Below, one piece after another: positions 15,699 to 20,756 of a DNA stretch of 64,000 nt. Each line of letters opens with the position of its first letter. Positions within the stretch are counted from its first letter, which is position 1. The stretch is from Streptomyces albogriseolus. GTDB lineage: Bacteria > Actinomycetota > Actinomycetes > Streptomycetales > Streptomycetaceae. The stretch is from NCBI GenBank assembly GCA_014650475.1, contig BMVA01000021.1, positions 1-64,000 on the forward strand, read 5' to 3'. The notes beneath the pieces were generated by a model. The model searched no databases. It saw only the letters and a program-made list of their open reading frames with translations, and was not told the origin of the DNA. A program made the translations under genes and the position numbers.

Positions 15699-16685
15699 AT
15701 GGAGCAGAGGCATCTCGGCCGTACCGGCCTGCGTGTGTCCCGGATCGGGCTCGGGACCCTCACCTGGGGCCGTGACACCGACGAGCACGACGCGGCAGAG
15801 CTCTTGAAGACGTTCTGGGACGCGGGCGGGACGCTGGTCGACACGGCGGACGTGTACGGCGACGGGGAGGCCGAGTATCTGCTCGGGCGGCTGATGGAGG
15901 GGCTGGTGCCGCGCCGGGACCTGGTGATCTCCACGAAGGCCGGCAGCGTGCCCGACCCGGACCGCCGGTTCGACGGCTCGCGCGGCCATCTGCTGTCCGC
16001 GCTGGACGCCTCGCTCACCCGCCTCGGCACCGACTACGTCGACGTGTGGCACGTCCACGCCTACGATCCGGTCACCCCGCTGGAGGAGACGCTCCAGGCG
16101 CTGGACATCGCCGTCGCCAGCGGCCGGGTGCGGTACGCGGGCGTGTCCAACTTCTGCGGCTGGCAGCTCGCCAAGGCCGCGACCTGGCAGCTCGCCGCAC
16201 CGGGCGCGCGCACCCGCCTGGCGAGCACCCAGATGGAGTACTCGCTGCTGCAGCGCGGGGTGGAGCGGGAGGTGCTGCCCGCCGCGGTCGACCTCGGCAT
16301 CGGCATGCTGCCGTCCTCCCCGCTCGGGCGGGGCGTGCTCACCGGCAAGTACCGCGGGGACGCCACCCCGGCGGACTCGCGCGGCGCCTCGGAGCACCTC
16401 GCGCCGTTCGTCGCGCCGTACCTGGACGACACGGCGAGCCGGATCGTGGACGCGGTGACGACCGCGGCGGACGGGCTCGCGGTGACCGCGCTCCAGGTGG
16501 CGCTCGCCTGGGTCCGCGACCGGCCGGGGGTGACCGCGCCCATCGTGGGCGCGCGGACGGCGCAGCAGCTCACGGCGGCGTTGTCAGTGGAGGCGCTTAG
16601 TCTTCCTGACGAGATCTGCCGGGCGCTCGACGACGTGTCGGCTCCCGTGCACCGCTATCCCGATCACGACTGGAGCACGCTGTGA
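15699..16685 (+). CDS. Aldo/keto reductase
   Basis: A 328-residue NADPH-dependent aldo/keto reductase. The catalytic tetrad is visible in the DTADVYGDGEAEYLLG (Asp, Tyr) segment near residue 48, STKAG (Lys) near 79 and WHVHAYDP (His) near 113. ATG 15699 gives MEQRHLGRTGLRVSRIGLGT, the standard family start. The stop overlaps the next gene's start (GTGA), so the two are co-translated. Physiological substrate unknown. Confidence 0.9.
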   Translation: MEQRHLGRTGLRVSRIGLGTLTWGRDTDEHDAAELLKTFWDAGGTLVDTADVYGDGEAEYLLGRLMEGLVPRRDLVISTKAGSVPDPDRRFDGSRGHLLSALDASLTRLGTDYVDVWHVHAYDPVTPLEETLQALDIAVASGRVRYAGVSNFCGWQLAKAATWQLAAPGARTRLASTQMEYSLLQRGVEREVLPAAVDLGIGMLPSSPLGRGVLTGKYRGDATPADSRGASEHLAPFVAPYLDDTASRIVDAVTTAADGLAVTALQVALAWVRDRPGVTAPIVGARTAQQLTAALSVEALSLPDEICRALDDVSAPVHRYPDHDWSTL

Positions 16686-18721
16686 GCACGCCGGAGACCC
16701 CTGAGGAGCCGAGGAGCGCGGACGACGGCACGCCCGCCGAGGGCGCGCAGGTGTCCGAGGCCGAGGCGGAGCTGGCCGCGCAGCGCCTGGAGCGGGAGCG
16801 GATCGAGCGGCGCAAGGCGGAGCGGCAGGGCCCGATCGAGGCCGGCGCCAAGCTGAGCGGCACGGCGGCCGACCTGCTCGCCGCCGTCCGGGCCGTGGAG
16901 AGCGGCGAGAAGCCGCCGGCCACCGTGTTCGAGGAGGCGCGGCCCGCGCCGCGGCGCCCCGCGCCCGAGCCGGTGCGGCGGGCCCCGGTGGTCCCGGAGG
17001 GACCGGCCGCGCCCGCCGAGGGCACCGTGGGCGAGGTGCGGGAGGTCCTGACGCGGGGCGGTGCGCCCGCCGCGCTCGCCGCGCCGGCCGCCGCCGCCCT
17101 GGGCGAGGACGCCGCGGACCTGCTGCGGGAGGATCCCTGGCAGCTTCTGCGGGTGCCGGGCGTCCGCCCCGAGCAGGCGGACGGGTTCGCCCGCGCGCTG
17201 CTCGGCGGGGAGGCCGGGCCCGACGACGAGCGGCGGGGCCGTGCGCTGACCGTCTGGCTGCTGGAGCAGGCCGCCGCGGCCGGGCACACGGTGCTGGAGA
17301 CGGCCGCGCTCACCGAGGCGCTGGGCCGCCAGGGCGTGCTCGGCCCGGAGGACGCGGTGCGGAACGCCATCGCCGAGGGGGACGTCCTCGTGTTCCAGGA
17401 CGCGGTCGGCGAGGCGGTCGGGGAGGACGAGGAGCAGCCTGTCCGGGTGCTGGTCGGTCTGGAGCACTGCGCCCTCGCCGAGGAGAGCCTCGCCGACGGT
17501 CTGGCCCGGCTGATCAACTCCGCGCCCAAGCAGGACGGGGCGGCCGAGGAGTGGGAGCGGGCGGCCTCCGCGGCGGAGGGCTCCGCGGCCGACCTGATCC
17601 GCGCGGCCTCGGGGCACGGACTGGTGCTGCACACCGGCGGGGAGGCCGCGCTGGCCGAGCCGGCGGCCCTGCTGAACGCGGCGCACGGCATGGGGCTGCG
17701 CGCCTGGGCGGCCACGCACAGCCCGGTCGGGCGGGAGCGTTTCGCGTCCCGCGTCGACGGCCCGGCCGTCGCCACCGTCGCCGGGCTGCTGTCCGGCGCC
17801 GAGGGGCCCGGGCGGGACCCGGAGGGCGCGCTGGCCGTGGACCTGCTGGTGGTGCTGGACGCGCCGCAGCTCGACGTGGAGACCGCCGCGCTGCTGTCGG
17901 AGTCCCTGCCGGACGGGGCACGGCTGGTCCTGTCCGGCGACCCGGCGGTGCTGTGGTCGGTGGGACCCGGGCGGGTGTTCGCGGATCTGCTGGCGGCGCG
18001 GGCCTGCCCGCAGATCGCTTCCCGGCGCCCGGATCCGGGGCCGCTGGGCGAGCTGGTCTCGGGCATCGGCGTCGGCGAGCTGCTCCAGGTGGAGGCCCCC
18101 GAGAAGGAGGTCGTCATCGTGCCCGTGCGGGACGCGGGCGAGGCGGTGCACCGGACCGTCCAGCTGGTGGCGGACTCGGTGCCCCGCGCCCTCGGGGTGC
18201 CGGCCGAGGAGACGCAGGTGATCACCCCGGGCCACGGCGGCGCGGTCGGCACGCGCGTGCTGAACGCGGCGCTGAAGGAGCGGCTGAACCCGGGCCCGGG
18301 CCGCTTCGCCGGCTTCGACCCCGGCGACCGGGTCGCGTGGTCCCCCGCTCCCGGACGCACCCTGCCGGGCCGCGTGGTCGGGGCGGACGGCCAGGGCCTG
18401 CGCCTGGACTGCGCGGGCGAGACGGTCGTCGTGCCGCGTGACCGCGTGGAGCAGACGGTCCGCCACGGCTGGGCGCTGACCGCGCACCAGGCGGTGGGCG
18501 CCCGCTGGCCGGCGGCGGTCGTGGTCCTCCCCGGCGACGCGGTCCCCGCCCTGAGCCGCCCCTGGATCTACACGGCCTTCAGCCGCGCCGACCGCCACCT
18601 GTCGGTGGTCCACGGAGTGGACCAGGCCCTCCAGCGGGCGGTCGCCGAGGTCCCGGCCAAGCCGCGCACGACGCGCCTGCCCGTGCTGCTGGCACCGCAG
18701 TTGCCTGGGGCGGCGGAGTAG
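16682..18721 (+). CDS. RecD2-like protein with degenerate ATPase motifs
   Basis: A 679-residue protein related to the RecD2/RecD superfamily 1 helicases. Residues 1-110 are charged and proline-rich. A helix-hairpin-helix-like block (PWQLLRVPGVRPEQADGFA) lies near 150-170. The helicase core then shows a ruined P-loop (LHTGGEAALAEP near 313, no GKT) and a ruined Walker B (VVLDAPQLDV near 390, DA instead of DE). Motif III is recognisable (LSGDPAVLWSVGPG near 416), as are motif V (LTAHQAVGARW near 599) and motif VI (YTAFSRADRHL near 629). It probably still binds DNA but does not hydrolyse ATP. Coupled to the aldo/keto reductase by a 4-bp overlap. Confidence 0.85.
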   Translation: MSTPETPEEPRSADDGTPAEGAQVSEAEAELAAQRLERERIERRKAERQGPIEAGAKLSGTAADLLAAVRAVESGEKPPATVFEEARPAPRRPAPEPVRRAPVVPEGPAAPAEGTVGEVREVLTRGGAPAALAAPAAAALGEDAADLLREDPWQLLRVPGVRPEQADGFARALLGGEAGPDDERRGRALTVWLLEQAAAAGHTVLETAALTEALGRQGVLGPEDAVRNAIAEGDVLVFQDAVGEAVGEDEEQPVRVLVGLEHCALAEESLADGLARLINSAPKQDGAAEEWERAASAAEGSAADLIRAASGHGLVLHTGGEAALAEPAALLNAAHGMGLRAWAATHSPVGRERFASRVDGPAVATVAGLLSGAEGPGRDPEGALAVDLLVVLDAPQLDVETAALLSESLPDGARLVLSGDPAVLWSVGPGRVFADLLAARACPQIASRRPDPGPLGELVSGIGVGELLQVEAPEKEVVIVPVRDAGEAVHRTVQLVADSVPRALGVPAEETQVITPGHGGAVGTRVLNAALKERLNPGPGRFAGFDPGDRVAWSPAPGRTLPGRVVGADGQGLRLDCAGETVVVPRDRVEQTVRHGWALTAHQAVGARWPAAVVVLPGDAVPALSRPWIYTAFSRADRHLSVVHGVDQALQRAVAEVPAKPRTTRLPVLLAPQLPGAAE

Positions 18722-18800: not shown

Positions 18801-19487
18801 TCAGCGGTCTGCGTCCAGGGGTTCCAGGTCCTCGTCCGTGTCGGGGGCCAGGACCGTTTCCAGGTCGTCGTCGTCCTCTTCGTCGTCTCCGTCGTCGTCG
18901 AAGACGGCGCTGACGTCGAAGCGGCACACCACCGCCTCGGGGTCCACCTGCTCGAAGGGGGCCTCGAGCCACTCGCCGGGGTCCGGGATCTCGTCCGATG
19001 CCGTCACCCAGAGCGTGGAGTCGCCCTCCTCCAGGCCGAACTCCTTGTGCCGGGAGGCGATCTCGTCCGGTTCGTACTCCCCGAACAGCAGGCCCAGCGC
19101 GCCGTGGACGGTGCGGGAGGCCTCCGAACCCTCGTCGTCCGCCTCCTCGATCCGCTGGGCGTGCGCCAGCAGCCGCTGTGGCTCGGCGACGGCGTAGTCG
19201 CGGCGGATCAGCACGCTGAGGGCGTTCGGCTCCTCGGGGCCGGCGTACGGGGGCAGGGCCTCCTCGGTACCGGGGATCTCGAAGGGCGTGACCTCGTCGT
19301 AACGGTCGTAGAGCAGTTCGTCGTACGTCTCCGCGGCCGCGGCCAGCTGGTTGAAGGCCTCGTAGACGGCCGGGTCGTCGTCACCCGACCGGCTCTCGAC
19401 CGCGGCCAGGTGGCGGTCGAGCGCGGTCTTCACCGCCTCGGCGGCGGCACGTACCTCGGCAGCGGTGGGCTGCGCAGCATCAGACAT
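18801..19487 (-). CDS. Conserved acidic hypothetical protein
   Basis: A 228-residue soluble, strongly acidic protein with no recognised domain. Helical segments at the N-terminus (EVRAAAEAVKTALDRHL) are followed by an alternating hydrophobic/acidic core, and the last 35 residues are almost a run of Asp/Glu. ATG 19487 gives MSDAAQPTAAEV; a longer start adds 13 non-conserved residues. Divergent from the small gene at 19535. The place next to the RecD2-like gene looks conserved in Streptomyces by recollection, but no function is known. Confidence 0.8.
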   Translation of the reverse strand: MSDAAQPTAAEVRAAAEAVKTALDRHLAAVESRSGDDDPAVYEAFNQLAAAAETYDELLYDRYDEVTPFEIPGTEEALPPYAGPEEPNALSVLIRRDYAVAEPQRLLAHAQRIEEADDEGSEASRTVHGALGLLFGEYEPDEIASRHKEFGLEEGDSTLWVTASDEIPDPGEWLEAPFEQVDPEAVVCRFDVSAVFDDDGDDEEDDDDLETVLAPDTDEDLEPLDADR

Positions 19488-19799: not shown

Positions 19800-20594
19800 T
19801 CACGCCGCGGCGCGCGCCCTGCGGTACAGGATGCTGCCGGCGAGCAGCGCACCCGCGCCGGCCGGCAGCACGAGGCCGAGCGGCAGTCCGCTGCCGGTCT
19901 CGGCGAGCTGCGCGTCGCCCTGCGGGCCCGGCTGGTTGCCGGTGGAGGGGGTGTCCGGAGTGCTGGGCGTGCCAGGCGTACCGGGTTCACCCGGGTTCCC
20001 CGGCTCGCCGGGGTTGCCGGGCTCCTCCGGGTTACCGGGCTCTCCAGGGTTGCCGGGCTCCCCCGGGTTGCCGGGCTCTCCAGGGTTCCCCGGCTCACCG
20101 GGCTGACCGGGCTCCCCCGGGTTGCCCGGCTCACCCGGCTCACCGGGCTCGCCCGGGTGACCCCCGTCGTGCCCCGTGTTGGCGCAGTCGTTGCCGGCCG
20201 CACCGTTGCCCACGCCGATGACATCGACGCTGTTGCCGCAGACGTTCACCGGCACGTGCACCGGCGCCTGCACCACGTTGCCGGAGGCCACGCCGGGCGA
20301 GTCGCTCGCCGTGCCGTGGGCGTGCGCGCCGCCGAGGTGGCCGGAGCCGCCCTTGTTGGCGCAGGCGTTGCCGACCGCCGGGTTGAGGACCCCGACGACG
20401 TTGACCGTGTTGCCGCAGACGTTGACCGGCACATGCACCGGCGCCTGCACCACGTTGCCGGAGAGCACGCCCGGCGAGCCCTTGGCCCCGCCCGTCGCAC
20501 CGGAGTCGGCGTGGGCGGCGGCGCCGCCCGCGGCGGCGAGCACACCGGTGGCGGCGGCCATGGTCATCAAGCCCTTGCGGGTGACCTGTCGCAT
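19800..20594 (-). CDS. chpC: Long chaplin, sortase-anchored, with collagen-like stalk
   Basis: A 264-residue surface protein that helps aerial hyphae emerge by forming amyloid-like hydrophobic layers. Order: signal peptide (1-29), chaplin domain 1 (about 39-80, Cys60 and Cys78), chaplin domain 2 (about 99-140, Cys119 and Cys137), 21 Gly-x-Pro triplets (148-210), sortase signal LAETG (230-234), membrane helix (about 237-257) and a basic tail YRRARAAA. Two chaplin domains plus LAxTG define the long chaplins ChpA-C; position next to a short chaplin matches chpC-chpH (SCO1674-SCO1675). The collagen-like stalk is unusually long and regular. Confidence 0.92.
19965..20153 (-). repeat. Coding repeat for Gly-x-Pro triplets
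   Basis: About 63 codons of near-tandem 9/18-bp units encode GEP/GNP/GQP/GTP triplets in the long chaplin, broken only by one EEP triplet. Such a tract is prone to slippage, so its length probably varies between strains. Confidence 0.85.
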
Positions 20595-20756
20595 TGCTGA
20601 ATTCCTGTCCTCGGACCTGCTGCCGGGAGACGGCGCCTGCCGCGTCCCGGATTCTCGACGAATGAGGAACCGGTCGGCCCCGGAGCACATGGCGCGCGCT
20701 CCGGGGCCGACGGCTCGAACCCTCAGCGGGCGTTGCCTAGAGGGCGAGACACGACA

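Follow-up and report, generated by a model that had tools for sequence, protein, structure and literature searches.

The locus and the encoded protein

The stretch analyzed here, hereafter the window, comprises 64,000 nucleotides of Streptomyces albogriseolus DNA (GenBank assembly GCA_014650475.1, contig BMVA01000021.1, positions 1 to 64,000 of the forward strand) and carries a gene for a RecD2-like protein whose ATPase motifs are lost, i.e. a putative pseudohelicase. Its open reading frame was confirmed exactly, and its start overlaps by 4 nt the stop of a gene for an aldo/keto reductase (AKR). The features of the two genes are as follows, with protein positions in amino acids (aa):

15699..16685, plus strand: AKR (Pfam PF00248), directly upstream, stop overlapping the pseudohelicase start
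16682..18721, plus strand: RecD2-like pseudohelicase coding sequence, 679 aa, GTG start
17033..17293, plus strand: HHH_RecD2 domain (Pfam PF14490), aa 118-204
17627..17662, plus strand: former Walker A (motif I), now LHTGGEAALAEP, aa 316-327
17849..17878, plus strand: former Walker B (motif II), now VVLDAPQLDV, aa 390-399
17930..17971, plus strand: altered motif III, LSGDPAVLWSVGPG, aa 417-430
18158..18187, plus strand: subfamily signature VQLVADSVPR, aa 493-502, recognizable even in most shortened forms
18476..18508, plus strand: altered motif V, LTAHQAVGARW, aa 599-609
18569..18589, plus strand: motif VI, YTAFSRA, aa 630-636, arginine retained in the window protein

A previous sequence-only reading had proposed that both ATPase motifs are lost while the RecD2 fold is kept, and our analysis agrees on both points. 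The Walker A site reads LHTGGEAALAEP and the Walker B site has DA, while a pattern search of the translations for GxxxxGK[ST] or hhxDExS found neither anywhere in the window protein or in the other 70 members of our family set (71 orthologous loci of Streptomycetaceae, f1, translated), so that a GKT or DE hidden elsewhere in the protein was rejected. Motifs III, V and VI can all be recognized, as had been claimed, yet III and V are altered with respect to intact relatives (GDPAQLPS to GDPAVLWS and TVHRAQGSEWP to TAHQAVGARWP, respectively), and motif Ia (APTGRAAKRL in intact relatives) is gone. In Pfam, the protein belongs to HHH_RecD2 (E 7.7e-12, 45.4 bits, cut-off 27) and carries a UvrD_C_2 domain (E 2.2e-7); the AAA_30 alignment, with a score below its cut-off, begins at profile position 53, and the Walker A part of that profile is thus unmatched. 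The protein falls outside the RecD2 equivalog TIGR01448 of NCBIfam (119.7 bits vs. a cut-off of 500), leaving the first 140 profile positions unmatched. It has neither the GxxxxGK[ST] of Walker A nor the DE of Walker B that characterize this family.

Little is understood of what RecD2 does outside RecBCD. RecD2 (SF1B, TIGR01448; Deinococcus radiodurans PDB 3gp8, 3gpl and 3e1s) is the closest solved relative in sequence and fold, the best match being 3e1s (E 2.7e-21), and the predicted model of the window protein shows the overall RecD2 fold. The two are alike in the HHH domain, the two RecA-like domains and the inserted SH3-like part, and differ in that the window protein is without Walker A, DE and motif Ia. 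RecD of RecBCD is an active motor subunit, and its identity to the window protein is about 20% (1w36, 6sjb). Furthermore, the claim of no obvious redundancy failed, given that a canonical RecD2, complete in its motifs, is encoded elsewhere in this genome (845.4 bits vs. the cut-off of 500).

Synteny and intact relatives

The gene order luciferase-like, AKR, RecD2-like, M20 peptidase is the same in the window and in loci encoding an intact helicase, such as L049-L051. Among the best 80 of 278 relatives from named genomes, all 80 of them intact, and within the flanks examined, an AKR was present in 79, an M20 peptidase in 25 and a luciferase-like gene in 10. The AKR also neighbors 67 of the 71 family loci, 10 of 11 loci from other families of the order, 10 of 12 further motorless loci and 5 of 14 further intact loci (short flanks examined); it was found in 0 of 2 wider loci of the intact family f18 (L199, L200) and not beside the motorless L056. 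The 4-nt overlap, from which translational coupling had been proposed, is borne out by its recurrence in 57 of 67 family loci and in 59 of 82 other loci for which the AKR end was found (from 80 named-genome loci plus 4 of the 14 further intact loci). Shared gene order and overlap show that motorless and intact proteins occupy the same locus in most lineages, and with the overlap on both sides, coupling is older than the loss of the motor.

These data bear on the idea that the protein acts off DNA, as partner or regulator of the co-translated AKR or of the neighboring operon. It would fit the nearly constant AKR neighbor, the overlap on both sides of the motor loss and the acidic core described below. 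However, the link already existed with the intact helicase and leaves the loss unexplained, the AKR was not found at L056, L199 and L200 and in most of the further intact loci, and the HHH domain and RecD2 fold are kept. We thus regard this idea as improbable.

The window gene is a member of a distinct RecD2-like subfamily with the signature QLV(T/A)DS(I/V)PR, located mostly behind an AKR, as is the case in the window (15699-16685). The subfamily is separate from canonical RecD2, since five canonical rows formed one clade in both gene trees described below (support 100 in the quick and 100/100 in the careful tree). A class-wide search of 98 genomes gave any match in 47, and intact relatives from the class (41-45% identity) retain GGPGTGKS, APTGRAAKRL, VVVDExSM, GDPAQLPSIG, (H/Y)RQ and TVHRAQGSEWP. 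Intact GGPGTGKS and DExS motifs were present in 94 of 94 loci from other orders or families, i.e. the best 80 of the 278 relatives from a scan of named genomes (all intact, including Frankiales metagenome-assembled genomes (MAGs), Geodermatophilaceae and one Streptosporangiales MAG) and 14 from further families; the scan used a mostly intact alignment and motif V patterns and therefore leans to intact forms. These syntenic orthologues (37-43% identity in the alignment) have in common with the motorless form the QLVTDSIPR signature and, in most cases, the upstream AKR. They differ in having all ATPase motifs and an N-terminal FxAFCxAGLWPGLG stretch that looks helix-hairpin-helix-like, and they too score below the RecD2 cut-off (422-447 bits in the three scanned). 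The place of this stretch is occupied in the window protein by aa 20-76 (16739-16909), where two helices are partly conserved in the family, the first of them charged (seaeAelaAqrxererierrkAe), the other reading AdLlaAVRAvEsG.

Outside the class, all 13 loci examined were RecD2-type with an intact P-loop, and no AKR match was obtained in the flanking DNA examined. A plasmid search for an annotated orthologue returned 150 records, all below 60% identity, and the 20 listed were mostly named RecD-like helicases. Intact motifs in close homologues had been named as an observation that would contradict the proposed loss; they are absent from the loci read inside the order and present in other orders, which dates the loss rather than refuting it.

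Distribution of the motorless form and number of losses

An orthologue-grade match was found in 97 of 101 sampled Streptomyces genomes; in the remaining four (G028, G050, G070, G079) the best match had an E value of only 1e-15 to 1e-21, which is the range of canonical RecD2. At the family level, 60 of 61 sampled genomes were positive, the exception being G135, an assembly of 1650 contigs. In all 71 family loci both motifs are absent, the core frame is open and the former P-loop reads H[TS]G[GAS][ENDQ], with H317 and G319 present in at least 98.5% of them. Both motifs are also missing from nine divergent loci of the family, one of them in a genome that already contributes to the 71, and from 11 loci of two other families of the order (11 of 15 sampled genomes). 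One stop was flagged inside the genome-search match in G026, G035, G059 and G089, and in two of the four stop-flagged orthologues (L011, L026) the core frame was continuous on translation. The recurrence of the altered motifs and the open core frame in 71 of 71 loci led us to reject a sequencing error or pseudogene, and by this comparison the copy is not decaying and its sequence is no error. One mark of a pseudohelicase was thus observed, namely descent from a helicase with the ATPase motifs missing throughout the orthologues.

Beyond the order, 12 motorless loci were found in families f17, f8, f31, f2, f6, f28 and f20. Nine of the 12 are shortened, most with open frames of 319-489 aa and without the SH3-like part. 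Strongly shortened forms (L202, L203, L191-L197) are without the P-loop region and the SH3-like part, and keep the C-terminal block and a QLVxxS(I/V)P-like stretch.

A quick gene tree of 70 chosen rows, from which the motif I-II stretch had been removed, placed all 43 motorless rows in one clade (Shimodaira-Hasegawa-like approximate likelihood ratio 99); it contains the shortest forms and L064 and came with a warning of long branches. A careful tree was built from 60 rows after motifs I to VI had been cut out; ten short or long rows were omitted, including the shortest forms and L064, and the remaining 33 motorless rows again formed one clade (100/99). A first tree of the host genomes based on RpoB, rooted on the in-class small-genome family f5, did not recover a single loss: the intact hosts formed a nested clade, and in an approximately unbiased test a branch separating the 16 motorless rows from all others was rejected (p 0.0004). 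That test had put gene-less genomes on the other side and had no outgroup from outside the class. When four out-of-class genomes served as the root, 17 of 17 motorless hosts fell into a 21-row clade (96/93), the other four members of which are without the gene, and the eight intact hosts lay outside it; family f8 (L064) is not represented in the RpoB trees. Several independent losses were therefore rejected, one loss being most likely, if unproven. It most likely corresponds to a single inactivation in a deep common ancestor shared by a large group of actinobacteria, the order of the window among them. At its simplest, the gene would then have been retained, becoming shorter in certain lines and disappearing from others.

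Selection and conservation

The ratio of nonsynonymous to synonymous substitution (dN/dS) had a median of 0.318 over aa 113-672 (Nei-Gojobori, 2483 pairs of the 71 family loci), a method that ignores the strong GC bias, so that absolute values are rough. By part, it was 0.334 for the HHH domain, 0.31 for the former ATPase domain, 0.141 for aa 470-540 and 0.209 for aa 595-672; the AKR gave 0.20 (1768 pairs). The claim that the gene is maintained and not decaying is thus supported, with purifying selection acting on it. In total, 159 positions are at least 98.5% identical among at least 65 of the 71 loci. Conservation is highest in aa 470-550 and 595-646, which belong to the second RecA-like domain, a part that has been retained. 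Among equal windows, the stretches QLVADSVPR and ITPGHGG..GDR rank within the most conserved 1%.

An alternative explanation is that, with canonical RecD2 present, the copy lost its motor and erodes slowly, being carried by translational coupling to the AKR. A dN/dS above that of canonical RecD2, the shortened forms in several families and the absence of the gene from some genomes agree with it. However, the low dN/dS of aa 470-540 and 595-672, the near-invariant positions, the conservation of the altered P-loop itself and the unbroken core frame, the latter two in all 71 loci, are opposed to slow erosion, and we consider a vestigial copy unlikely. Regarding the former nucleotide pocket, the Walker B stretch ranks in the top 14% and the P-loop stretch in the top 35% of equal windows. 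Their conservation, as DAP and HTGGE, could indicate a non-standard site that still binds or hydrolyses nucleotide, but the protein is without the defining lysine, serine/threonine and glutamate and has also lost the glutamine of motif III and the RAQG of motif V, rendering such a site highly improbable.

Proposed role of the protein

We believe it probable, with appreciable doubt, that the gene encodes a RecD2-derived pseudohelicase whose ancestral motor was lost once and which now acts as a non-motor binding scaffold. The ancestor would have been an ATP-driven helicase of the RecD2-like subfamily, and the ATP-binding loop and the catalytic Walker B glutamate would have been lost once in a common ancestor. 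The resulting protein is predicted to be unable to hydrolyse ATP or translocate. Its HHH domain, accessory domains and second RecA-like domain may provide a static hold on a nucleic acid junction, a partner protein or both, with a former nucleotide pocket that would no longer need ATP. As conservation is strongest in the second RecA-like domain and in the block at the C-terminus, the likely activity would be binding there.

A number of observations weigh against this scaffold reading. The SH3-like part has a dN/dS of 0.422, and in the 16 genomes carrying both genes (120 pairs, one canonical frame being partial) the pseudohelicase value was 0.24 vs. 0.09 for canonical RecD2, i.e. 2.7 times as high. 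Motif Ia is usually a DNA-contact element; it is gone here, and its stretch lies in the least conserved tenth of equal windows. The core is acidic, with a net charge of -26, which calls for caution in assuming DNA binding; the values of intact relatives are -18 to -25 for five of them over 571-642 residues and -13 for one over 445 residues. In addition, the frames reduced to 319-489 aa in some lineages could reflect slow erosion. Finally, G070 is rated 100% complete and yet has no orthologue-grade match, and the lack of such a match in 4 of 101 genomes of the genus indicates that the gene is dispensable.

Pseudohelicases as such are already known. The replication helicase PriA of D. radiodurans is reported to have lost Walker A/B function and ATPase activity, while DNA binding and DnaB binding were shown by experiment (PMC4504706). 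Both cases are lineage-specific losses of Walker A/B in a helicase; in PriA the orthologue itself has changed, whereas here a second gene stands beside an intact RecD2. The accessible part of a 2005 survey reports RecD2 in both Streptomyces then compared, mentions no second form and calls the role of RecD2 outside RecBCD unidentified (PMC1193525). No paper on the present subfamily was found in the literature searched, which covers few subscription papers. The locus offers a clean natural experiment, since the helicase it encodes is complete in some orders of actinobacteria and devoid of its motor in another clade, and this suggests that a non-motor job of a RecD2-type protein may be separable from unwinding. 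The paralogue is also found in the genetically tractable Streptomyces, beside an intact RecD2.

Neighboring genes

The gene facing the pseudohelicase encodes an acidic protein, designated D241:

18801..19487, minus strand: D241, convergent acidic protein, without NCBIfam match or significant Pfam match

D241 adjoins the motorless gene in 71 of 71 family loci; in G129 the two are 16 kb apart, and in G254 they are on different contigs. Of 22 genomes carrying the motorless form, 19 had D241 in a genome-wide search; it was found in 0 of 14 carrying the intact form and, in one case weakly, in 2 of 6 that do not have the gene. G222, G190 and G155 lack it, and in G172 it occurs although no RecD2-like match there is of orthologue grade. 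As the motorless hosts form one clade, this spread may reflect shared ancestry and not a functional link, and D241 is not put forward as a proven partner, in view of its distribution along one clade and of the four genomes just mentioned. It is conceivable, though rather unlikely, that one ancient event turned a RecD2-type motor structural and that the ATP pocket was reused as a conserved partner-docking site, possibly for D241. If so, Streptomyces and its allies would possess, in these two proteins, a complex without a motor that acts at DNA junctions or in replication/repair. The N-terminal ~75 residues of D241, ending in EVTPF, are common to short homologues in other actinobacterial families, and no relatives were confirmed in viral contigs.

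Between the D241 gene and the M20 peptidase sits a long chaplin (19803-20690, minus strand) with two ChpA-C stretches, collagen-like G-E-P repeats and a C-terminal LAETG-type sorting signal.
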